Source: an uncultured Clostridia bacterium | GTDB taxonomy: Bacteria > Bacillota > Clostridia > Christensenellales > CAG-917 | Assembly: GCA_947589395.1 (NCBI GenBank) | Contig: CANQAA010000005.1 | Span: 1-38,866 of the forward strand | Direction of reading: 5' to 3' | Length of the DNA: 38,866 bases | Shown: positions 13,353 to 27,117 of the stretch, piece after piece | How positions within the stretch are numbered: position 1 is the stretch's first letter | How the letters are laid out: every line of letters begins with the position of its first letter | Translations under genes and position numbers: made by a program | Notes under the pieces: model-generated | What the model saw: the letters and a program-made list of their open reading frames with translations, nothing else | Database searches by the model: none | Told to the model about the DNA's origin: nothing

Positions 13353-15149
13353 TCAATATCTTGCGCGGCGAACGATGAGGACAATGACGACGATGACAAG
13401 CGCCGTCCCGAGCGCTGCGCCCGCCACGCCCGCGACGATGGTGATGAGCTTTGTTTGCTCGCTCTTTTCGCTTCTCAACTCAATTTTCAGTTCCTTTGTG
13501 AACACGTCGTCGGCAAACTCGCCCTTGATGACGTATGTGCCGTTCTCGGTGGGACAAAACTCAAACGTGCTGCCCACCTGCTTTGTGAACTTGCCGTTGA
13601 CGTACCAATCTATCTTTTCAAGTCGCGCGGGATCGAAGTAGTCCGCGTTCAAGATCGTCAGCGTATATTTGCCGCCCACGACGATATTGGGCACATACGG
13701 CTTGCCGTTTTCGTCGACGAAGGCGAGCTGCATGTTGGCAACGACCTCTCTTGTGAGCTTTTTGTATCCGACCGTAACGGTTACGAACTGCTCCACAAAC
13801 TTCGTGCCGTCCGACGCCGTCCATCTTGCAAGCAGAATGTGAGTTGAAACTTCATTTTTTGGGATGTACGAAAACTCGTAGCCCTCCCCTATCTTCTCGT
13901 CCTTTTCAAACCACTCGACGCTCCCCGCCTGTTTCAGATCCGCAGGCGAAATGTTGAAGGATAGCTTGACCGAGCTCACGCTCCCCGCCTCTTGCGAAAG
14001 GTTGCCGTTCGCCCCGATCGAGGAGTTGATGCCGTCGACGTCCATCACGAGTTTGACGAGGTCCAGCGCATTGAGTTTGTATGTTTTCTCGCCCGACTGC
14101 TTCTCTATCGTCCTTGTGTGCGCCGCAACGAGCCTCGCTCTTGCCTCTTGAGAGGCGCAAACTCCGCTTTCCGCTCTCATTTTCAAAGTGATGAGCGCCG
14201 CCGCAAACGACACGACGGGAGCCGCCATAGACGTGCCGGACATGAGCTGATACACGTCCCCGCTTCCCTTTGCGCTATAAATGTTGCTGCCGGGAGCGGC
14301 AAGCTCGTAGAGGTCGCCGAAGCTCGAAGTCGAGGCGAGGTTGTAGCCTTCGGCGTAGTTCATAACTCCCACGACGTTTTTTGACGCTGCAGGATAGACG
14401 GGAGTGCTCGCGCTGTCCGCCTTGTGATTGCCTGCCGCCGCGACGAACACCGCCTTGTTTGCCATATCCGCCGTCACGAAGTTGAAGGCTTCGCCGTCGC
14501 TGCCGGACGCTTCAAAGGACATATTGACGACGTCCGCGCCGTTCTTAAGGGCGAAATTCACCGCCTCTTTGACGTCCTTGATCGCAAAACTCGCGCCGTC
14601 CTTCGTGTTTTTGGCGGCTTTGATGGGCATGATCTTGATGTATTTTTCAAGGTCGAGCATGTGAATGAGCTCTGCAACTATTCCCGCGACGTGCGTGCCG
14701 TGACGATTGTCCACGTCGTCCGTGACGTTTGGCGTGCTCGAAGTCTCGTCCGTCCTCATGCCGACTGTGTTCTGGCATATGACGTTGTCGTTTGAGTCCT
14801 TCAAGAGCACATCGTAGTTCCCCTCCCCGTATGCGCCCGAAAAGAGGTTGTTTTGAGAAATTATGCCGGAGTCTATCACCGCGACGACGATCGGGTCGGA
14901 GGCGATCTCTTGCATATGCGAAAAGTCCGACGAAGTTTTCCAATCCTCAACGATGTCTTTCACCGCGTCGATGTTGAGATATTCCTCCGTCGTCCACCAA
15001 TCCTTGCCGCCTTTTGCAAGCTCCTCCTCAAATTGGGGTGGCAAAAGAGCCTGCGCCGTGAGTTCGGCAGGCAAAGCAAGCATTGCGAAAACGAATATCG
15101 CAAAAAACGCTATGCAAGCTATGCAAATTTTTTGAAAAGCTCTTTTCAT
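13353..15149 (-). CDS. Secreted, membrane-anchored subtilisin-like S8 serine peptidase
   Basis: 598 aa; N-terminal hydrophobic signal, VVAVIDSGI (Asp), NRHGTHVAGIV (His), LMSGTSMAAPVVSFAAAL (Ser), C-terminal TM LITIVAGVAGAALGTALVIVVIVLIVRRARY. Confidence 0.93.
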   Translation of the reverse strand: MKRAFQKICIACIAFFAIFVFAMLALPAELTAQALLPPQFEEELAKGGKDWWTTEEYLNIDAVKDIVEDWKTSSDFSHMQEIASDPIVVAVIDSGIISQNNLFSGAYGEGNYDVLLKDSNDNVICQNTVGMRTDETSSTPNVTDDVDNRHGTHVAGIVAELIHMLDLEKYIKIMPIKAAKNTKDGASFAIKDVKEAVNFALKNGADVVNMSFEASGSDGEAFNFVTADMANKAVFVAAAGNHKADSASTPVYPAASKNVVGVMNYAEGYNLASTSSFGDLYELAAPGSNIYSAKGSGDVYQLMSGTSMAAPVVSFAAALITLKMRAESGVCASQEARARLVAAHTRTIEKQSGEKTYKLNALDLVKLVMDVDGINSSIGANGNLSQEAGSVSSVKLSFNISPADLKQAGSVEWFEKDEKIGEGYEFSYIPKNEVSTHILLARWTASDGTKFVEQFVTVTVGYKKLTREVVANMQLAFVDENGKPYVPNIVVGGKYTLTILNADYFDPARLEKIDWYVNGKFTKQVGSTFEFCPTENGTYVIKGEFADDVFTKELKIELRSEKSEQTKLITIVAGVAGAALGTALVIVVIVLIVRRARY

Positions 15150-15569: not shown

Positions 15570-17141
15570 TTACGGCTTCAGTCTCACAAGTTCCCTTAAA
15601 AGATCCACGTTCGCCTCTACGTCGCTTAGCGCCCTGTGTGCTTCGGTGTGGCGGAATTTCATATCCTTTGCGATGCTCTCGAGGCGGAAGTTTGACCTGC
15701 CGGACATATACCGCCTTGCGAGCACGAGGGTGTCGATGAGTTCGTTGTCAAAGTAATAGCCAAGCGAATTTCCGACGCGTTTGATGATGGGAAAGTCAAA
15801 GTTTTCGATGTTGTGCCCCGCAAGGATCGCGCCCTCCGTAAACTTGAAAAAGTCCGGCAAGACCCTGTCGATGGACGGGGCGTCCTTGACCATATCGTTT
15901 GTGATGTGGTTGATCTCGGTCGCGTCGCGCGGGATGGGCTCTGAGGGCTTGACGAGCGCGGTGAACGTCTCAAATTCCACTCCGTCCACGAGCTTTATCG
16001 CGCCGATCTCGATTATCTCGGTGGTTGCCGCAAACTTCGAAGTGGTCTCGAGGTCGAAAACGACGACGGTCTTGCCCTTGAAAAACTTCTCCAACTTTTT
16101 GTCATCGTCGTCCACGAAGGCGCGAAGCTCGCTCATTCCCGTGTACTTTTCGGGGAAGATCGTCCTATACTCGCTCGGCGCGGGCTTTTGAATGACCGTA
16201 TGTATGCTTGAAAAGTCTATCTCGCATCTGAAAATCGCGTTGAGCATGTAGCTAAGTCCCCCCGTGTGCTGAGAGGTGGTCACTCTTCCCAAGCAGATAA
16301 CTTCGTCGCCGTCCTTCAACGCCTCGAGCGGCTTGACCTCCTCTACGGACGGGAATATGACGCTGTCGATAGACCCAGTCGTGTCGTTGAGCGAAAAGCG
16401 CACGAGCGGCTTCTTTTCGGGACCGCTCTTTTTGTCGTTTGGGTCGTACTTTTTGTTGTTGTACGTCAGCTTGGCTACGTTTGAAACCTTGCCGCACAAA
16501 ATTATGCCGTCGCCCTCCCCCTTGACGTCCACAATGTAGTTGGGAAGTTGGCTTATGGACTCTATCTTGCCGCGCGCGTACAGCTTTGAGAGCGGGCGGA
16601 CGTTGACGAGCCTCAATGAATCCGTACGCTTGACAGCCGTGTCGGGCATTGAAAAGTCCTCGTCCTTGATCTGAGTCTCGATGAGGCTGACCTTTGACGG
16701 CTCCGAAAAACTCCTCTCGAGCAAGTCCTCAAGGTCGTCGCAAAAGTTGCCGGACTCAAGCATCTTTATCGTCGCCGCGTCAAAGAAAAATTTCACCGAA
16801 ATTTGCTCGTCCACCGTGACTTTCATCGTGTCGTCCTTGACGCGCCTGAAAATCAGCTGATAATTTTTGTTGAGATACTCCAAAATTTTGTTGGAGACGA
16901 CGCCCGAGTCCGCATAGGTCTTTATGTATTGCACGCTGACTTTGACGCCGTTGAAAAGCCCGTCGAGCACGCTTTGCACCTCTTGCTTTTTTTTGTCGTC
17001 GAAGTCTTTTAGCTTGAACGCGCTGATGATAAAGCGCACGCAAAGCTCGTTCACGTCCTTATAATATATCGCGCTGTTGTACTTCAGCTCGGGAAACTTC
17101 CCGTTTGTGGCTTTGACAAATTCCTCAACAAATTTTACCAT
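15570..17141 (-). CDS. PolC N-terminal-like protein: PolC-type N-terminal region + OB fold + DEDDh 3'-5' exonuclease, no PHP or polymerase domain
   Basis: 523 aa; Exo I VVFDLETTS, NIENFDFPIIKRVGNSLGYY, Exo III HRALSDVEA; OB-like segment GIILCGKVSNVAKLTY...RFSLNDTTGSIDSVIF; sits directly downstream of ispG, where polC is found in many Firmicutes. Confidence 0.8.
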   Translation of the reverse strand: MVKFVEEFVKATNGKFPELKYNSAIYYKDVNELCVRFIISAFKLKDFDDKKKQEVQSVLDGLFNGVKVSVQYIKTYADSGVVSNKILEYLNKNYQLIFRRVKDDTMKVTVDEQISVKFFFDAATIKMLESGNFCDDLEDLLERSFSEPSKVSLIETQIKDEDFSMPDTAVKRTDSLRLVNVRPLSKLYARGKIESISQLPNYIVDVKGEGDGIILCGKVSNVAKLTYNNKKYDPNDKKSGPEKKPLVRFSLNDTTGSIDSVIFPSVEEVKPLEALKDGDEVICLGRVTTSQHTGGLSYMLNAIFRCEIDFSSIHTVIQKPAPSEYRTIFPEKYTGMSELRAFVDDDDKKLEKFFKGKTVVVFDLETTSKFAATTEIIEIGAIKLVDGVEFETFTALVKPSEPIPRDATEINHITNDMVKDAPSIDRVLPDFFKFTEGAILAGHNIENFDFPIIKRVGNSLGYYFDNELIDTLVLARRYMSGRSNFRLESIAKDMKFRHTEAHRALSDVEANVDLLRELVRLKP

Positions 17142-17192: not shown

Positions 17193-18281
17193 TCACATGC
17201 CGATTTTGCCAAGTTTTTTCGATTTCAGTTTCTCTTTTATCAACTTCTCGAGCGCGGGCATGAGCTCGTCGTTTTTTATCTCTCCGACAATCTTTCCGTC
17301 CTCAAGCAGAACGGACTTTTCCTTTCCGCCCGCGACGCCGATGTCGCTCTTCTTCCCCTCTCCTATCCCGTTCAAAGGACAGCCGAGCACGGAGATCTTG
17401 AGCGGCTCGTCGATTGCGGCGCACATGAGCTCGATCTTTTGGGCAAGCCCCTCGACGTCGATCTGAGTGCGCGCGCAAGTGGGACAGGAGACGACGTCCA
17501 CTCCGTCCCTGAGCTTTAGCGCCATCAATATCTTTTTCGCAGCCAAAACTTCTTCGACGACGTCGCAGCTGAGCGAAACTCTCACCGTGTCGCCTATGCC
17601 CTCCGCAAGCAGCGCTCCAAGCGAAATGGAGGATTTGACAAGCCCGCTTCTCAGCGTCCCCGCCTCCGTCACGCCAATGTGAAGGGGAAAGTCGCATTCC
17701 TTTGCAAGAAGTCTGTTTGCCTCCACGTTGACGAGTGGGTCGCTCGCCTTGATTGCAACGACGATATCTTTGAGTCCTGCCCTTTCAAAGAGATTTGCGC
17801 ACTCGAGCGCGCTCTCTTTCAAGGCAAGTTCTTCCTTCAATCCCGCAAAGCGTTTGTCAAGCGAGCCGCCGTTCACGCCCACGCGAATTGGCACTCCCAA
17901 GTCGCTCATTCTCTTTGCGAGCGGCTCAATGAGGCTATACTCGGCGCGCATATTGCCGGGATTCATCCTTATCTTTTTTGCGCCTGCGTCAAGAGCCATA
18001 TGCGCCAACTTATAGCTGTAGTGTATGTCCGCAATGAGGGGAAGTCCCGTCCTCTTTGCAATGACGCCAAACGCCTCAGCCGACGCTTCGTCCGGCACGG
18101 CGAGGCGAATGAGGTCGCAACCTACGCTCTTTAGCCTGTTTATTTGCGCTATGCACCCCTCGACGTCCGTAGTTTTGGCGTTGAGCATGGACTGGATGGA
18201 AATTTTCGCTCCCCCGCCTATCTTCACGTCTCCCACAGAGACTTGGCGCGTTTTTCTTCTCATATTCATCTCGCTTAGCAT
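17193..18281 (-). CDS. ispG: 4-hydroxy-3-methylbut-2-en-1-yl diphosphate synthase
   Basis: 362 aa; RRKTRQVSVGDVKIGGGAKISIQSMLNAKTTDVEGCIAQI, PLIADIHYSYKLA, RMNPGNM, SCPTCARTQIDVEG. Confidence 0.96.
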   Translation of the reverse strand: MLSEMNMRRKTRQVSVGDVKIGGGAKISIQSMLNAKTTDVEGCIAQINRLKSVGCDLIRLAVPDEASAEAFGVIAKRTGLPLIADIHYSYKLAHMALDAGAKKIRMNPGNMRAEYSLIEPLAKRMSDLGVPIRVGVNGGSLDKRFAGLKEELALKESALECANLFERAGLKDIVVAIKASDPLVNVEANRLLAKECDFPLHIGVTEAGTLRSGLVKSSISLGALLAEGIGDTVRVSLSCDVVEEVLAAKKILMALKLRDGVDVVSCPTCARTQIDVEGLAQKIELMCAAIDEPLKISVLGCPLNGIGEGKKSDIGVAGGKEKSVLLEDGKIVGEIKNDELMPALEKLIKEKLKSKKLGKIGM

Positions 18282-18310: not shown

Positions 18311-19621
18311 TCACCCCTTGACGAGGTGGAAAATGTCGAGGAAAACGGCAAACACGATGAGCAAAACAAGCCCCACAGTGTGTATGACCGCCTCGACCTT
18401 GCGCGGCACGGGTTTTTTGAAGATCATCTCGATGAGCGTAAACAACATTCTCGAGCCGTCGAGCGCCGGGAATGGGAGCAAGTTCATCACCGCGAGGTTT
18501 GCGGAAATGATCGCCACCGCGTACAAAAAGCTATCGAACCCAAGCGTGGACACTTTCGCGATCGTGCCGATGGTCGTGATCGTGCCGCCTGCCGCCTCAA
18601 ACCCTATCTTGCCGGTTATCAACGCCCCGAGAGACGCAAGGATCTTGAACACTATGAAGAAGCAAAATCCAAACGACCTGCCAAACGCGAGGAAAAACGG
18701 GAGCTTTGCCCGCGTAAGGCTGTGCGTGATGCCAAAGCCGTAACAGTAATATCCGCTCGGATCCTCTTCGCTCAAACCTCTTTGCACCTTGACCGTGCTC
18801 TTTGAAACTATGTTCCCCGCCTCGTCAAAGGACGCGAGGGTCAGGTATATCTCCTCGTCGGTATCCGCTTCGCTCACTGTCGAGAGCAGATCCGGCGTTA
18901 TGGGAGACTCAAGTTCCAGCCCGTTGATCTCAACTATCATGTCTCTGATTTCAAACGGACTGTACACATGCTTTTGCATGCGGACGGTGACTCTTCGCCC
19001 CTTTCTAAGCACCTTGAACTTCGCGCTGTCGCCGAGCTTTTGAAAGACCTTGTCCACGTCCTCCTGCATCATTATGTTGACCTGCTTGGAGTTTACGGAC
19101 AAAATGACGTCGCCTTCCTGAAGGTAGCCCGCCTCACTATAGTGCGTGCCTACGACCGTAGGCAGCGCCTGTCCGTAGGCGGTGAAATATATCGTGATGA
19201 TAAAAATCGCGCTCAAAAAGTTCATAAACGCGCCCGCGAACAGCACGATGAGCCTCTTCCACGCCTTTTGATTGTTGAAAGCGGCGGGATCTTTGACGAT
19301 ATTGCCGCTCTCGTCCTTGACCTGTTCTCCGTTTTCATCGAGGAGCGCGCCGTCCGCGTCCTCGCCGTGAAACGCGCAAAATCCCCCAATCGGAAATGGA
19401 CGAATGGAAAAAATCTCCCCCGTCTTTTTGTTTGTGCGCTTGAAAATTCTCGGGCCGAATCCGATCGCGAACTCGTCTATCTTGAAGCCCAAAAGTTTCC
19501 CCGTCGCGTAATGCCCAAGCTCATGAACGACGATCATGAACATGAGCGCAAGAAGCGCCACGATCACATAGCCGATATATTTGAAAACCTCAGCGGCGCT
19601 CACCGCGATCAAAGCCTGCAC
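18311..19621 (-). CDS. rseP: RIP metalloprotease RseP (M50 site-2 protease)
   Basis: VVHELGHYATGKLLGFKIDEFAIGFGP, PDZ segment, NLLPFPALDGSRMLF. GTG start overlapping the dxr stop (TAGTG). Confidence 0.93.
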   Translation of the reverse strand: MQALIAVSAAEVFKYIGYVIVALLALMFMIVVHELGHYATGKLLGFKIDEFAIGFGPRIFKRTNKKTGEIFSIRPFPIGGFCAFHGEDADGALLDENGEQVKDESGNIVKDPAAFNNQKAWKRLIVLFAGAFMNFLSAIFIITIYFTAYGQALPTVVGTHYSEAGYLQEGDVILSVNSKQVNIMMQEDVDKVFQKLGDSAKFKVLRKGRRVTVRMQKHVYSPFEIRDMIVEINGLELESPITPDLLSTVSEADTDEEIYLTLASFDEAGNIVSKSTVKVQRGLSEEDPSGYYCYGFGITHSLTRAKLPFFLAFGRSFGFCFFIVFKILASLGALITGKIGFEAAGGTITTIGTIAKVSTLGFDSFLYAVAIISANLAVMNLLPFPALDGSRMLFTLIEMIFKKPVPRKVEAVIHTVGLVLLIVFAVFLDIFHLVKG

Positions 19622-20772
19622 TATTTCGTCCCTACCATAGAATAAGTGTATTGTCTTGCTTTTTCATCTATGCTAAGTATATTTTCAAGTTCGACTTCTT
19701 TTATACCCTTGAATTTGCTCAGCGTTTTTTTGAGCAAAAGCGGAATGTCGGTGAGCTTTATCTTTTTTTCGAGATACTTTTCGACCAAGACCTCGTCCGC
19801 CGCTGAGAGCGCGATGACCGCCCCCTCGCCCGCGTTTGCCGCCTCGTAGGCGAGCTCGAGACAGGGATATCTCTCAAAATCCGGCGCGGAAAAATTGAGA
19901 ACGCCGATCTTGTCAAGCCTCAATGCCTCGACGGAATTTACGCCCCTTTCGGGATAGTAAAGCGCGTTTTCGATTGACAGTTTCATATCCGGGACGGACA
20001 AGAGCGCCTTTTGCGCGCCGTCTGAAAACTCCACGAGGGAGTGAACGACGCTCTCCCTGTGCATGAGTACCTCAACGTCGCTCGCGCCGACCTCAAACAG
20101 CCTCATCGCCTCGATGACCTCGAGCCCCTTGTTGAAGAGGGTCGCGCTGTCGATCGTGATCTTTTTGCCCATGCTCCACACGGGGTGATTGAGAGCCTCT
20201 TCGGGCGTTATCTTCGAGAGCTTGTCGACGGGCACGTCTCTCAGCGCCCCGCCGCTTGCAGTCAGCACGAGTTTTTTGACCTGTTTTTTGCTCTCGCCCT
20301 TAAGACATTGCATGATCGCGGAGTGCTCCGTGTCGAGCGGAATGATCTTGCCGCCGTACTTTCTTTCAAGGTCTTTCAGGTGTCTACCCGCCGCGACGAT
20401 GGTCTCCTTGTTGGCGATGGCGAGCGTGCCTCCCCTCTTCAAAACCGCGACGGCAGCCCAAAGCCCCGCAATGCCGCTGACCGCCGAGATAACGATGTCC
20501 GCAGGCTTTGACGCGAGCTCCTCAAGCGACCCCACGCATTTTGTGAAGCTCTTGTCCTCGAGAATGTCAAAAAGCGAGCCCTGCACTTCGACCGCGCCGC
20601 TCGGAAAATAGTAGTGCGCGGGCGAAAATTTTTCAAGCTGAGCGCGCAAAAGTTCCTCGTTTTTGTAGGCGGAAAGCCCCACGACCTTGAAGGCTTCGGG
20701 GTGTCTTGAGACGCACTCGAGCGCCTGTCTGCCGACGGAGCCGGTGCTTCCTAAAATGGTAACAGTTTTCAT
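19621..20772 (-). CDS. dxr: 1-deoxy-D-xylulose 5-phosphate reductoisomerase
   Basis: MKTVTILGSTGSVGRQALECV, LAIANKETIVAAG, IIPLDTEHSAIMQCL, LTASGGALRD, HPVWSMGKKITIDSATLFNKGLEVIEA. Confidence 0.96.
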   Translation of the reverse strand: MKTVTILGSTGSVGRQALECVSRHPEAFKVVGLSAYKNEELLRAQLEKFSPAHYYFPSGAVEVQGSLFDILEDKSFTKCVGSLEELASKPADIVISAVSGIAGLWAAVAVLKRGGTLAIANKETIVAAGRHLKDLERKYGGKIIPLDTEHSAIMQCLKGESKKQVKKLVLTASGGALRDVPVDKLSKITPEEALNHPVWSMGKKITIDSATLFNKGLEVIEAMRLFEVGASDVEVLMHRESVVHSLVEFSDGAQKALLSVPDMKLSIENALYYPERGVNSVEALRLDKIGVLNFSAPDFERYPCLELAYEAANAGEGAVIALSAADEVLVEKYLEKKIKLTDIPLLLKKTLSKFKGIKEVELENILSIDEKARQYTYSMVGTK

Positions 20773-20818
20773 TTTTATCCCAAGCGACGCATTAGATTTC
20801 AAGTCTGAGAACGTCGCC

Positions 20819-21880
20819 TTAAAAGCCGTAGATGATCGTGAACGCAACAAGCAGCGGCACGAGACAGAACATCACGCTGTCTATCCTGTCCAAAAATCCG
20901 CCGTGACCGGGAAAGATCTTGCCGTAGTCCTTGATGCCTATCGCCCTCTTTATCGCCGACGCGCAAAGGTCGCCAAGCTCCGACGCCACGCCCATCATGA
21001 CGCCGAGCGCGAGATAGACGAGCGCGCTCTTATATAGACGCCCCTCGCCCGCAAAAAACGGAATGTAGCCGCACTTTTCGGCAAACGCGGGCGCGCACTC
21101 GAATATGGCAAAGAACACGATGGACATGACCGTCGCGCCTATCACCGCGCCTATTGCTCCCGCCACAGTCTTTTTTGGGCTTATCTTCGGGCACAGCTTT
21201 TTGCCGCCGATGAGTGACCCCAAAAAATACGCGAACATATCCCCGCCGATTATCGGCACGACGATAGCGTAAAGCACCGCAAAAAGCGCCCCGTACTTGT
21301 AGCTTGCCACCCACGCGAGCATGAAAAACGTGATGGGATACACAAGCAAAAACACGTTTGCAAAGAGGTCGTTGAGCATGAGTTTGCCGCTCGTTTCCAC
21401 TCTCTGCTCGCAATTTTCGCAAGCCCCGCCCTCAACGCTCGCTTCTGAATGAGCCTCGCACTCGACGCAATTTCCGTTTTGGGTCTCGCCCTCAACGCTC
21501 GCTTCGCCGTCAATATGTTCCATAGCGCAATACTTTTTCGAGAGAGGACGGAAAGTGAAGATCAAAAGCGCAAGGCAGGCGCTTGCAGCAAGCGCTATCA
21601 TGAGCCCCTGTATGCCCGCGCTGACAGTCCTCGCCCCGTCGCCGACATAATATTGCATTAGGTAAAACGCGGGATATGCCGTCAGCAAAAGCAAAATCGC
21701 GGGCGATTTGAACATCTTGTATCCCGCGTCCTTGAAGCAATTGTACAGCTCGTACACCGACCCCGCAAGGAAGATGAGCACGAGCATATCCATAAATATC
21801 GGGCTCACAAAATAGCTGCATACGATGAACACTGCAAGCACAGCTATGAGTATGATCCCGGTGATTATGCGTTTGAGCAT
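20819..21880 (-). CDS. cdsA: Phosphatidate cytidylyltransferase with a hydrophilic Cys-containing insertion
   Basis: Multi-TM protein; C-terminal signature DYGKIFPGHGGFLDRIDSVMF, and KISPKKTVAGAIGAVIG. Confidence 0.94.
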   Translation of the reverse strand: MLKRIITGIILIAVLAVFIVCSYFVSPIFMDMLVLIFLAGSVYELYNCFKDAGYKMFKSPAILLLLTAYPAFYLMQYYVGDGARTVSAGIQGLMIALAASACLALLIFTFRPLSKKYCAMEHIDGEASVEGETQNGNCVECEAHSEASVEGGACENCEQRVETSGKLMLNDLFANVFLLVYPITFFMLAWVASYKYGALFAVLYAIVVPIIGGDMFAYFLGSLIGGKKLCPKISPKKTVAGAIGAVIGATVMSIVFFAIFECAPAFAEKCGYIPFFAGEGRLYKSALVYLALGVMMGVASELGDLCASAIKRAIGIKDYGKIFPGHGGFLDRIDSVMFCLVPLLVAFTIIYGF

Positions 21881-21882
21881 AT

Positions 21883-22518
21883 TTATCTCCCGAATTTGCG
21901 AACGCGACCATCAAACTCCTTCAAAATCGCGTCCACGTCATCAGCGGTCATATCCCCCCAAAGTTTGTCGAGGAATATGAGCTCTGCGTACGCCGCTTCA
22001 AACAGCATGAAGTTTGAAAGGCGCTTTTCCCCGCCTGTGCGCACGACAAGATCGAGCGGAGCCGACCCTGCCGACGAAAGATTTGCGCGGAAGACTTCCT
22101 CGCTGAATTCGCCCTGCTCGCAGCAAGCCCTTGCCGCTCTCAGGATGTCCGCCTGAGCGCCGTAGCCCGCCGCGATATTGAGCTTCATTCCCTTGTTTGA
22201 AGCCGTGCGCCGCTCTATCTCGTAGGCATTGAGCTTGGACAGCGTCCTCTCGTCTCCGATATATTTCACGCGCATATCGCCGTCGTAGTTCAAATTGAAC
22301 GACTTGATGACGTCGAAGATGGCGGCGCTGTCCTCTTTGGGTCTGCCCACGTTTTCGGTCGAATATGCGAACACTGTGACCTCTTCGACGCCGCGCTCTG
22401 CGCATCTTGCCGTCACGTCCAACATGGCTTTGAGCCCCTGAACATAGCCCGATTTTTTGTCAAGCCCGTGTTTTTTCGCCCATCTGCCGTTGCCGTCCAT
22501 TATAAATCCAACGTGCAT
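21883..22518 (-). CDS. uppS: Isoprenyl transferase / undecaprenyl diphosphate synthase
   Basis: MHVGFIMDGNGRWAKKHG, VTVFAYSTENVGRPKEDSAAIF, LDLVVRTGGEKRLSNFMLFEAAYAELIFLDKLWGD. Confidence 0.95.
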   Translation of the reverse strand: MHVGFIMDGNGRWAKKHGLDKKSGYVQGLKAMLDVTARCAERGVEEVTVFAYSTENVGRPKEDSAAIFDVIKSFNLNYDGDMRVKYIGDERTLSKLNAYEIERRTASNKGMKLNIAAGYGAQADILRAARACCEQGEFSEEVFRANLSSAGSAPLDLVVRTGGEKRLSNFMLFEAAYAELIFLDKLWGDMTADDVDAILKEFDGRVRKFGR

Positions 22519-23093
22519 TATATCGACAAAATTTCCTGTTCTTTTTCTTTGAAGAGCCTGTCCACTTCGTCGATCTGCTTTGCGAGCGCCTTGTCGACGT
22601 CGGCGGTGAAAATTTTGAGGTCGTCTTCCGTGATGACTGACGATTTTTGGATCTTTTTGAGTTCGTCGATGGCGTCCCTTCTCGCGTTTCTGAGCACGAT
22701 CTTCGCTTCCTCAACGAGGTTTTTTGCCTCCTTGACTGTGGAGCGACGACGCTCTTCGGTGAGCTCCGGGAAGATGAGGCGGATGACGTGTCCGTCGTTG
22801 TTGGGATTGATGCCGACGTTTGCGGCAAGGATCGCCCTCTCTATCGCCTTGAGTTGGGATTTGTCCCACGGGGCGACGACGAGCAGCCTCGCTTCGGGCA
22901 CGGAAATGTTCGCCATATTGTTGATGGGAGTGGGCACGCCGTAGTAGTCCACCGTGATCTTGTCGAGAATATGCGGATTTGCCCTGCCAGCGCGAATGCC
23001 TCTGAGCTCGCCTTGATAATTTGCCATGACTTTTTGCATTTTGTCGTTCATATCTTCAAAGATGAGGTCGACTTCTTCTATGTTATACGCCAT
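22518..23093 (-). CDS. frr: Ribosome recycling factor
   Basis: MAYNIEEVDLIFEDMNDKMQKVMANYQGELRGIRAGRANPHILDKITVDYYGVPTPINNMANISVPEARLLVV; ATG at 23093 follows GGAGG. Confidence 0.97.
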   Translation of the reverse strand: MAYNIEEVDLIFEDMNDKMQKVMANYQGELRGIRAGRANPHILDKITVDYYGVPTPINNMANISVPEARLLVVAPWDKSQLKAIERAILAANVGINPNNDGHVIRLIFPELTEERRRSTVKEAKNLVEEAKIVLRNARRDAIDELKKIQKSSVITEDDLKIFTADVDKALAKQIDEVDRLFKEKEQEILSI

Positions 23094-23194
23094 ATTGTCC
23101 TCCAAAATGGATTTTTTATATTATAACACAAAACTCTATCATAATCAAGAGCAGAATAAAATGTATATTACATTATTTAACTATACTTTAAGGA

Positions 23195-23264: not shown

Positions 23265-25637
23265 TTATTCCTGAGTGTCGTCGGGAAGATCCAGATTGAG
23301 GCCCTTGAACAGGTCGCCGATCGACGCAGTGCCGGAGCCGGACACCCATTCTTTCGGCTCGTTTGAGGACGCGTCCTTCTTGCCGGGCTTGCGTTCTCTT
23401 CTGCCTTCGCCGTCCGCGACTTTCTGCTCGAACTTCTTCATGCGGGAGTTGCGTCTGCCCTGCTTTTCCTCATCGGTCGCCTCGCTTATCTCCTCAGCGG
23501 AAGTTTCTGTCTGCTCCGGCGGGGGCAACAGCTCCTTCATGGAGAGCGTGATGCGGTTCTCGTCAAAGCCAATGATCTTTGCCTCGATCTCTTGGCCTAC
23601 CGTGAACACTTCGTTTGCGTCCTTGACCCAGTTGTGGGAAATCTGAGAGATGTGCACGAGGCCGTCAACGCCGTCGTCGATGGAGACGAACGCGCCAAAC
23701 GGGAATATTCTTTCGACCTTGCCCTTGACGACGCTGCCGACGGGGAACTTCTCTGCGGCGAGCTCATAGGGCTTTTTCTGAAGTTGCTTGTAGCCGAGCG
23801 AAATCTTTCCGGACTCTCTGTCCAGTTTGAGCACGACAAAGTCATAGCTCTCGCCTATCTTGAGGACTGTGGAAGGATCGCTGACCCTGTTCCAGCTCAG
23901 CTCCGAGACGTGGGCGAGGCAATCGTAGCCCTTCACGCTTACGAACGCGCCGAAGTTGGTGAATCTCTTGACCTTGCCGGTCACGATGTCATGCACATGG
24001 ATGCTGTTCCAGAATGCGTCTTCTCTTTCCTTCTTCTCCCTTTCGAGGATCATGCGCTGGGACGCAAACAAATATTTGGACTTCTTTTTGGGTTTTTCGG
24101 GAGTTGCGGGCTCGGTCGTCTCCGCTGTTTCCGACGGCTCTGCGCTTTCCGCGTTTTCGGCATTCTCGACGACTTCCTTTTTCGCTTCGGGTTGCTTTTC
24201 GGGCATGAGGGTGAGACGAAGTTCCTTGTCCTTGTAGTCCTCGAGGTTGCTGACGTAGCCCATTCTTATCTGGCTTGCGGGAACGAAGATCGTGTATGAG
24301 CCCAAGTGTCCTCTCAAGCCGCCCTTGACCACTTCGGTCATCTTGAGCCTGAACTCGGATTGAGAAAGGGCCTTTTCAGCCTCAGCCTCTTCGAGCAACT
24401 TGACGTCGACCGCCTTTTTGGAGAGGGTCACTTGTGTGCCTTTGGTATCAATGATAACCGCCATGAGCTCTTTGCCAACCTCAAAATCAGCCGGGTTGTA
24501 ATTGCCGTCTACGGTAGCTTCGGACTTGTCGATGAAGCCGTCCTTTTTGCCGCCGATGGCAACATACACGCCGTCCGGAGTTGCGGACAAGACCTTGCCG
24601 AGCACGCGCCTGCCAACTTTGTACTCAACGTAATGAGCGGTATGATTTGACTTCATAATGTCCGCCATTGTAAGTTGATCTTCATTGGCGTTAGCTTTTG
24701 CGTCCTCTTGAGGAGCAGTTTGTTCTTGAAGTGTTGCCTCTTTTGTCACTTCAGTTTCGGTGGCAACTTCTGCCTGATGTTGAGTTTCACTCATAAGTTC
24801 CGATACCTCCCGTATCAATGATGGCGGAGTCGACGCTCCTGCGACTATTGATACACTTTGAAAATCCTTAAAGTTTTTTGCTTGCTGCAAAAATTCCTCC
24901 GCATTTTGAATGAAAAACGTATTTTCATTTTTAGCCCTTGCGACCTCGAAAAGCCGTCTCGTATTGGCGCTCGTTGAGCTTCCGAGCACCAAAACAGCCT
25001 GATTTTTTTCGGCCAAAGCCACCGCTTCGGACTGTTTTGCCTTAGTAGTATAACAAATAGTATTAAAAATCTCAACTAAATTTTGGCTATTTTTTTTGAA
25101 ATTCTCAACAAATTTGCTTATTTTTTCAAAATTTTCGTCCAAAACGGTCGTTTGGAACAAAATTGCGGTGGGTTCGTCGCCGATTTCGGGCATTTTGTCG
25201 GGAGAAAGTATGGTCGCTCCCCCACGACAGTAGCTGATGAGCCCAACGACCTCGTCGTGCGTCTTATCCCCGTAAATTATTATGCGCCTGCCCATCTCGG
25301 ACTGCTCTTTTGCGATATTCTGATTTCGCTTGACGACGGGACATGTCGCGTCGAAAACGTTGAGACCTTTCTCTTTCAAGCTCCTCTCGAGCTCGACGGG
25401 AACGCCGTGCGCCCTGATGAGCACGGTATCCCCCGCTTTCAGCTTGCCTATGTCCTCAACGCTCACGCACTCCGCGCCGTGCTCGAAAAGATACGCCGTC
25501 ACAAGCTCGTTGTGCACGAGCTCTCCGAGCGTATATATCTTGCCGTACTTTTTTGCAAGCTCGAGCGCCATATCTACTGCGCGCTTCACGCCGTTGCAAA
25601 AGCCCGCGCCTGAGGCTATCTCAATTTTTCTTTTCAT
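23265..25637 (-). CDS. ispH-rpsA: Bifunctional 4-hydroxy-3-methylbut-2-enyl diphosphate reductase / ribosomal protein S1 fusion
   Basis: MKRKIEIASGAGFCNGVKRAVDMA, ATCPVVKRNQNIA, SSTSANTRRLFEVA (IspH), then repeated S1 domains (GKVKRFTNFGAFVSVKGYDCLAHVSELSW, GKVERIFPFGAFVSIDDGVDGLVHISQISH). Confidence 0.94.
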   Translation of the reverse strand: MKRKIEIASGAGFCNGVKRAVDMALELAKKYGKIYTLGELVHNELVTAYLFEHGAECVSVEDIGKLKAGDTVLIRAHGVPVELERSLKEKGLNVFDATCPVVKRNQNIAKEQSEMGRRIIIYGDKTHDEVVGLISYCRGGATILSPDKMPEIGDEPTAILFQTTVLDENFEKISKFVENFKKNSQNLVEIFNTICYTTKAKQSEAVALAEKNQAVLVLGSSTSANTRRLFEVARAKNENTFFIQNAEEFLQQAKNFKDFQSVSIVAGASTPPSLIREVSELMSETQHQAEVATETEVTKEATLQEQTAPQEDAKANANEDQLTMADIMKSNHTAHYVEYKVGRRVLGKVLSATPDGVYVAIGGKKDGFIDKSEATVDGNYNPADFEVGKELMAVIIDTKGTQVTLSKKAVDVKLLEEAEAEKALSQSEFRLKMTEVVKGGLRGHLGSYTIFVPASQIRMGYVSNLEDYKDKELRLTLMPEKQPEAKKEVVENAENAESAEPSETAETTEPATPEKPKKKSKYLFASQRMILEREKKEREDAFWNSIHVHDIVTGKVKRFTNFGAFVSVKGYDCLAHVSELSWNRVSDPSTVLKIGESYDFVVLKLDRESGKISLGYKQLQKKPYELAAEKFPVGSVVKGKVERIFPFGAFVSIDDGVDGLVHISQISHNWVKDANEVFTVGQEIEAKIIGFDENRITLSMKELLPPPEQTETSAEEISEATDEEKQGRRNSRMKKFEQKVADGEGRRERKPGKKDASSNEPKEWVSGSGTASIGDLFKGLNLDLPDDTQE

Positions 25638-27117
25638 GCTCGACGTATTCGTTGACAAGCCTTCTTGCCTCGTCCATTTTTTGCTTGATGAGATCGGTCG
25701 CTTCCTGCATCGCCTCGCTCCCCTTCTTGCCGTAAAACTCCTCGAGGGTGAAGGGCTCGCCGACGTACAGCCAATTCTTTTTGAACGCCTTAGGCGAGGA
25801 GTAATACATCATTGGGATTATAGGAGCTTTCGTCTTGATCGCAAACCTCGCCGCGCCCTGTTTCAGCTCCGCCATATCCTCCGTGCCCTGTCTGTTGCGA
25901 GTGCCTTCGGGGAAGATGAGCAGCTGTTTGTCAGCGTTGAGAACGCTCAGGATGCACTTCACGGAGCTCACGTCCGCGCTCCCCCTCTTGACGGGTATTG
26001 CGCCCATATGATACAAAAACCACGCGGGAATGGGAGCCTCGAACAGTTCCGCTTTGGCAAGTATATGTGCCTCGCGCTTAAATAGTGCCACGCAAGGCAA
26101 AAACGTGTCGACTTTTGAGTAGTGATTGCAAATATATATGGCTCTTCCCTCGATCTTTCTCGCGTTTTCGGGGTTGATGAGCTTTATCGGCCACACGAGC
26201 TTTTGCACGGGCTTCATGACGGTCCTGATAAAGCGGAAAAAGCCGAAGGACTTTAGCGGCGTATAATATTTTTTCAGTCTGTCGCTCGCGCCCTTCTTTT
26301 TTTGATCTTCTTTGATTTCACTCGGTTTGTTCGCCTCTTTTTCCTCTTCGTGAGCTTCGGAATTTGCCGCTTCGTGGGCTTCACGGTTTACCTCTTCGGG
26401 AGTCTCTTTGACTTCCTCGCCTTTCGCCTCTTCCGCCTGTTTTGCAAGCTCTCTTTGCACCTTGTCTATCACATAGCTCACCACGCTTTGCACGTCCATA
26501 TCCGACGTGTCCAAAAGCTCGGCGTCCTCAGCTTGCTTTAGCGGCGCGACCTCGCGGTGGGAGTCGTTGTAGTCCCGCTGCACGATGTCGGCAAGCAACT
26601 TGTCAAAGTCCACCTGCTCCCCTCTTGCGAGAAGCTCGTCGTAGCGGCGCTTTGCGCGAACTTCGGGAGTGGCTGTCAAAAACAGCTTGCAGTTGGCGTT
26701 TGGAAGCACGAACGTGCCTATGTCCCTGCCGTCGAGCACGACGTCGTGCGTCTTGCCAAACTCCCGCTGAAGCTCGACCATCTTGTATCTCACGCACTTC
26801 AGAGCCGATATATCGCTCGCCGCCTTTGACATGCGGTGCTCTCTGAGATACGGCGTCGCGTTTACGCCGTTGACGTAAATTTGTTGAACGCCGTCTTCGT
26901 ATTCTATCTTCATATCGAGCGTTTCGAGCATCTTTTGCACCCTCTCCTCGTCCTTGACGTCAATGCCGCTTTCAAGCGCCAAATACGCCGTCGCGCGGTA
27001 CATCGCGCCCGTGTCGAGGTATATGAAGCCCAGCCTTTTTGCAAGCTCCTTTGCCACCGTGCTCTTGCCTGCGCCCGCAGGACCGTCTATTGCAACGTTG
27101 ATCATATCTATCTCCAA
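25621..27117 (-). CDS. cmk: Cytidylate kinase fused to a 1-acyl-sn-glycerol-3-phosphate acyltransferase (PlsC-like)
   Basis: NVAIDGPAGAGKSTVAKELAKRLGFIYLDTGAMYRA ... RDIGTFVLPNANCKLFLTA (Cmk); acidic linker; ICNHYSKVDTFLP (NHxxxxD), FPEGTRNRQG (PlsC). One continuous ORF. Confidence 0.93.
   Translation of the reverse strand: MEIDMINVAIDGPAGAGKSTVAKELAKRLGFIYLDTGAMYRATAYLALESGIDVKDEERVQKMLETLDMKIEYEDGVQQIYVNGVNATPYLREHRMSKAASDISALKCVRYKMVELQREFGKTHDVVLDGRDIGTFVLPNANCKLFLTATPEVRAKRRYDELLARGEQVDFDKLLADIVQRDYNDSHREVAPLKQAEDAELLDTSDMDVQSVVSYVIDKVQRELAKQAEEAKGEEVKETPEEVNREAHEAANSEAHEEEKEANKPSEIKEDQKKKGASDRLKKYYTPLKSFGFFRFIRTVMKPVQKLVWPIKLINPENARKIEGRAIYICNHYSKVDTFLPCVALFKREAHILAKAELFEAPIPAWFLYHMGAIPVKRGSADVSSVKCILSVLNADKQLLIFPEGTRNRQGTEDMAELKQGAARFAIKTKAPIIPMMYYSSPKAFKKNWLYVGEPFTLEEFYGKKGSEAMQEATDLIKQKMDEARRLVNEYVEHEKKN

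Follow-up and report, generated by a model that had tools for sequence, protein, structure and literature searches.

The window, by which we mean the whole stretch of 38,866 nucleotides analysed (contig CANQAA010000005.1 of an uncultured Clostridia bacterium), carries on its minus strand a gene encoding a protein of 523 aa. The reading frame is intact at exactly 15570-17141, and its stop codon comes right after an exonuclease domain. A plus-strand reading of the same positions gave no protein. The gene, its domains and its neighbours are as follows:

13353..15149 (-): S8 peptidase, downstream of the 523-aa gene
15570..17141 (-): NTD-OB-exonuclease gene derived from PolC, 523 aa; start codon at 17141, stop at 15570
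15588..16073 (-): DEDDh 3'-5' exonuclease, residues 357-518; catalytic residues D363, E365, D449, H502 and D507
16074..16193 (-): disordered linker, residues 317-356, in the place of the N-terminal PHP part of PolC
16116..16130 (-): degenerate clamp-motif position, ELRAF, residues 338-342; relatives have Q-x-x-L-F
16194..16574 (-): OB fold, about residues 190-316; Pfam OB match at residues 243-292, E 4.5e-5, below the curated cut-off; hhalign P 99.2 against PolC OB
16665..17141 (-): NTD, residues 1-159; two alpha-beta-beta-alpha-alpha-beta units, type II KH-like; AF2 pLDDT 93.7; homologous to the PolC NTD
17193..18281 (-): ispG (GcpE), directly upstream of the 523-aa gene, as it is for both polC and the short form elsewhere in the order
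18311..23105 (-): rseP, dxr, cdsA, uppS and frr, the usual polC surroundings in clostridia

Further downstream, beyond the S8 peptidase, lies a germination protease. The peptidase occupies the place where most relatives have nusA, indicating that the downstream side of the locus has been rearranged in the window genome. Adjoining the frr-uppS-cdsA-dxr cluster, a gene at 23265-25658 (-) encodes IspH (LytB) fused to several S1 domains.

Only the exonuclease is readily recognised by family models. Residues 360-514 match Pfam RNase_T (E 8e-32), the NCBIfam polC-type models NF001688 and TIGR01405 cover residues 351-518 alone, and TIGR00573 scores 82.4 bits (cut-off 71.5). The remainder was assigned by profile-profile comparison (hhalign), which set 49 short proteins against the N-termini of 12 PolCs, with 20 shuffles as a control. 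NTD, OB fold and exonuclease align collinearly with PolC, and each domain also matches its PolC counterpart when taken alone: the NTD with P 96.8 and a score of 66.7 (shuffles at most 11.4), the OB fold with a score of 107.7 (at most 16.5) and the exonuclease with P 100 and a score of 399 (at most 21.4). The same comparison found no PHP similarity in the linker of about 45 residues.

A full-length AlphaFold2 model (pLDDT 86, pTM 0.50) leaves two linkers disordered, with pLDDT below 50 at residues 337-347; given this pTM, the relative positions of the domains are unreliable. The closest fold in the PDB is that of PolC 9qpc, matched over 406 columns. The PolC NTD has been described as a double type II KH-like domain (PMC3919608), and the modelled NTD of the short protein agrees. 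Foldseek searches with the NTD alone returned generic KH, BON and ring-type folds with low TM scores and did not return PolC; this result supports the topology only, and the case for homology comes from the profile comparison. The 523-aa gene is thus a PolC remnant consisting of a double KH-like NTD, an OB fold and a DEDDh exonuclease, without PHP and without polymerase; we refer to this architecture as the short form.

The window genome (1.32 Mb, 97 contigs, 92.7% complete) yielded no PolC polymerase. Its only C-family polymerase is DnaE, encoded on another contig; the PHP signature of this DnaE is intact and its clamp motif reads QLSLF. Since the assembly is incomplete, absence of PolC from this genome alone is no proof, and the pattern across relatives supplies it. 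We surveyed 198 genomes, each at least 90% complete, of the order, which we take to be Christensenellales. The short form was present in 103 and full PolC in 69, and no genome held both; carriers of the two belong to different families. Among the remaining 26 genomes, 25 contain the short gene, with a decayed active site in 24 of them. Genome G079 is the sole one without PolC and without the short form. A 307-aa match there was considered as a further-reduced short form and rejected, as it sits among CRISPR genes and resembles a Cas2-DEDDh fusion. In G079, L231:4505-5335 (+) encodes a 276-aa DEDDh-domain protein among apparent CRISPR type I-E genes, probably such a fusion.

The complement of replicases follows the same division. 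Among 80 relatives, genomes with full PolC hold PolC and DnaE, and those with the short form hold DnaE only, bar a few divergent or fragmentary extra matches. DnaE1 is therefore the only C-family replicase in the short-form genomes surveyed, and its PHP signature (HHDHEHCDH) is intact in all 22 of those examined. Clostridia that hold DnaE1 only have been reported before (PMC3919608). A PHP-Pol fragment hidden elsewhere in the genome was considered and rejected after this survey of C-family polymerases. Short-form genes end in clean stop codons on contigs of up to 411 kb. Nearly all named loci are titled Clostridia, Clostridiales or Bacillota, and they include Christensenella, Ca. Limadaptatus, Ca. 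Faecicola and Ca. Onthoplasma. Other orders of the class (about 277 genomes) gave no full-length short form among the listed matches, and the exonuclease matches listed there lie mostly inside full-length PolC frames.

Some small or chimeric polymerase-like frames were seen along the way. Proteins of 339-359 aa are encoded at L237:425-1444 (+) and L236:1662-2741 (+), the former matching two C-family polymerase domains, PF07733 (palm) and PF17657 (finger), in fragments only; similar frames of 295-375 aa are present in at least six short-form genomes. In genome G004, L238:903-3323 (+) encodes an 806-aa protein that combines a metallo-beta-lactamase domain with part of a C-family polymerase core (PF07733, PF17657).

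Full PolC and the short form share one chromosomal slot, between ispG and nusA. Of 110 short-form loci, 68 have ispG as the immediate upstream neighbour; of 76, 60 have nusA within 3 kb on the downstream side. Full polC also has nusA after it. A DnaE tree with other Clostridia as the root places every one of the 22 short-form genomes sampled, along with G060 and G071, in one clade (SH-aLRT 100); G060 and G071 have the short-form gene as well. G060 had been a candidate case of gene loss, rejected because a decayed copy is present. The clade is nested among PolC carriers and adjoins family f10. A tree of the NTD, OB fold and exonuclease likewise recovers the short form as one clade (SH-aLRT 99), again adjoining f10 PolC. 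Both are quick-search trees without bootstrap; they replaced an exonuclease-only tree, which was too short to resolve. As the short form is a single clade nested among PolC carriers in both trees, PHP and polymerase were lost once, by descent, in the ancestor of a large Christensenellales clade.

These results bear out the initial annotation, which had proposed a polC locus reduced to a stand-alone OB-exonuclease with a PolC-like N-terminus: the slot, the collinear homology and the mutual exclusion with PolC all support it. Its reading that the linker holds no PHP and that no polymerase coding follows held as well (profile comparison and ORF end), as did the option of replacement by a DnaE-type enzyme; its other option, a polymerase or PHP-Pol fragment encoded elsewhere, was not found in the genome search. 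Neither of the outcomes named as refuting it, a lack of similarity to the PolC NTD and OB fold or a separate, unrelated full polC in relatives, was observed. The clamp motif and the decayed-exonuclease lineages described below go beyond what it had seen.

The linker that replaces PHP carries a putative beta-clamp-type motif in most members; this assignment is inferred from sequence alone, without clamp binding data. We searched for Q..[LIMV][FLM] in the 48-residue stretch leading up to the first catalytic Asp, with 200 shuffles as a control, and found it in 78 of 115 short-form linkers (shuffles: mean 6.3, maximum 14). The commonest forms are QxDLF, QxSLF, QSGLF and QMDLF. About one third of members have no recognisable motif; the window's own family has weaker versions (QSLLD, EQGFLD), and the window protein itself only the degenerate ELRAF. 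Most full PolCs of the order have a QxSLF-like motif at their very C-terminus, and the pre-exonuclease linker of every PolC read is without one. The short form ends after the exonuclease and so lacks the PolC-type C-terminal motif. The clamp motif therefore appears to have arisen anew at the former PHP site.

The exonuclease itself is strongly conserved. Of 116 distinct short proteins, 114 have intact DEDDh residues; of the two exceptions, one is truncated by a contig end and the other, from G057, is decayed. In twelve close pairs dN/dS is 0.02-0.10, lower where dS is saturated. Catalytic residues are replaced in family f16, most of f19 and genus g250 of f32 (e.g., HNIVT, or deletions). The decayed copies (L264-L288) keep the NTD-OB-exonuclease fold and stay between ispG and nusA, and their pairs show dN of 0.18-0.32 against saturated dS, exonuclease part included. 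At least three lineages have thus lost the exonuclease site with the gene kept under purifying selection. Another DEDDh exonuclease (E <1e-20) occurs in 16 of 24 decayed-site genomes versus 4 of 42 intact-site ones (Fisher 2e-6); the test is not corrected for descent and the genomes are related, so the p-value makes the evidence look stronger than it is. The separate DEDDh proteins of decayed-site genomes measure about 190-450 aa. It is possible that catalysis was handed over to a small DnaQ in these lineages.

Among known systems, the short form resembles PolC-type DNA polymerase III (TIGR01405 / NF001688) in the order of NTD, OB fold and DEDDh domain and in having ispG upstream and nusA downstream, but it lacks PHP, the Pol3 core and HhH, and its clamp motif, in most relatives, lies between OB fold and exonuclease instead of at the C-terminus. 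With DnaQ/epsilon of Pol III it shares a separately encoded DEDDh exonuclease and DnaE-only replication; a putative clamp motif outside the exonuclease core would be a further parallel in the 78 of 115 members that have it, the window copy being degenerate. The E. coli epsilon subunit has such a motif and a C-terminal DnaE-binding tail. Unlike DnaQ, the short form is PolC-derived, keeps NTD and OB fold, has its motif N-terminal to the exonuclease and has no C-terminal DnaE-binding tail. Additional DnaQ proofreaders have been reported only in mycobacteria-like and Treponema cases (PMC12926913). PolCs without the exonuclease insertion exist in Clostridia and Negativicutes (PMC3919608), likewise a PolC dismantled within Clostridia, but the reverse case: there the polymerase is kept and the exonuclease gone. 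The short form is therefore neither a PolC nor a typical DnaQ, and we infer that it works like an epsilon subunit.

We consider it likely that the short form is a clamp-tethered proofreading subunit acting in trans for DnaE1, a function inferred without any DnaE or clamp complex modelled or measured. In this view, a PolC descendant lost PHP and polymerase once, leaving DnaE1 as the sole C-family replicase. The double KH-like NTD and the OB fold would keep the protein at the fork and on the single-stranded template; contact of the NTD with the clamp loader is a proposal made for PolC. The QxxLF motif at the old PHP position would tie most members to the beta clamp, and the DEDDh domain would remove mispaired 3' ends left by DnaE1. 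With the PHP site of DnaE1 also intact, the short form would be a second proofreader. Later catalytic decay in at least three lineages may have left a non-catalytic adaptor, often beside a small DnaQ. The separated proofreading subunit, already an option in the initial annotation, remains an inference, strengthened by the clamp motif and by the precedent of B. subtilis, where the PolC exonuclease proofreads DnaE in trans (PMC5627055). Against it stand the degenerate motif in the window, the third of members without one, the tolerance of catalytic loss in several lineages and the intact PHP of DnaE1, owing to which a second proofreader is not obviously needed. KH-like, OB and DEDDh domains could possibly act on RNA too. 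A bolder joint reading would have PolC dismantled once, the freed half re-evolving a clamp motif and proofreading DnaE1 in trans, and at least three lineages turning it into a non-catalytic replisome adaptor with a small DnaQ; we offer it tentatively, judging it more likely to fail than to hold as a whole.

Other explanations remain. The remnant may be a repair or damage-response nuclease, a possibility raised at the outset, that works at the clamp to repair gaps or mismatches or to remove primers, and not to proofread DnaE during replication. Many repair proteins carry clamp motifs, a PHP proofreader is already intact in DnaE1, and several lineages do without catalysis. However, the position, domain set and conservation fit the part of PolC that proofreads, trans-proofreading of DnaE by the PolC exonuclease is established, and a single further RNase_T protein, a weak match, is present in the window genome; we keep this rival as unlikely. 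Less likely still is a mainly structural adaptor, in which NTD and OB fold would connect the clamp loader, SSB-coated DNA and DnaE1, the exonuclease being secondary. The three lineages without an active site, which keep NTD, OB, exonuclease fold and locus with dN far below saturated dS, speak for it, as does the excess of second DEDDh exonucleases in them, with the caveat on descent given above. The invariance of the catalytic residues in 114 of 116 other members, however, implies that catalysis matters in most. Arrival of an unrelated exonuclease at the polC site, or truncation of polC by assembly, is all but excluded: only the incompleteness of the window assembly speaks for it, and the homology of NTD and OB fold, the neighbouring genes on either side, clean stops on long contigs and a single clade of more than 100 genomes all speak against it. 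A trans-acting proofreader of DnaE1 remains our preferred reading.

We found no description of the short form in the open-access literature searched, although absence there is not proof of novelty. The survey of PMC12926913 covered complete genomes, a sampling that would overlook most of the lineages described here, which come from metagenome assemblies. The reason for Clostridia to retain PolC alongside a fully equipped DnaE1, and the part played by each, has been stated as an open question (PMC3919608). Gut bacteria with the short form are predicted, by inference, to be without the target that PolC inhibitors like ibezapolstat act on; sparing of commensals has been explained by PolC variants (PMC11963600). 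The clade represents a natural experiment in which the PolC polymerase proved dispensable and the proofreading module and N-terminal region did not. It would allow direct tests of trans-proofreading and of the role of the PolC NTD and OB fold, and would also test the claimed link of PolC with strand-biased gene layout (PMC4070872).
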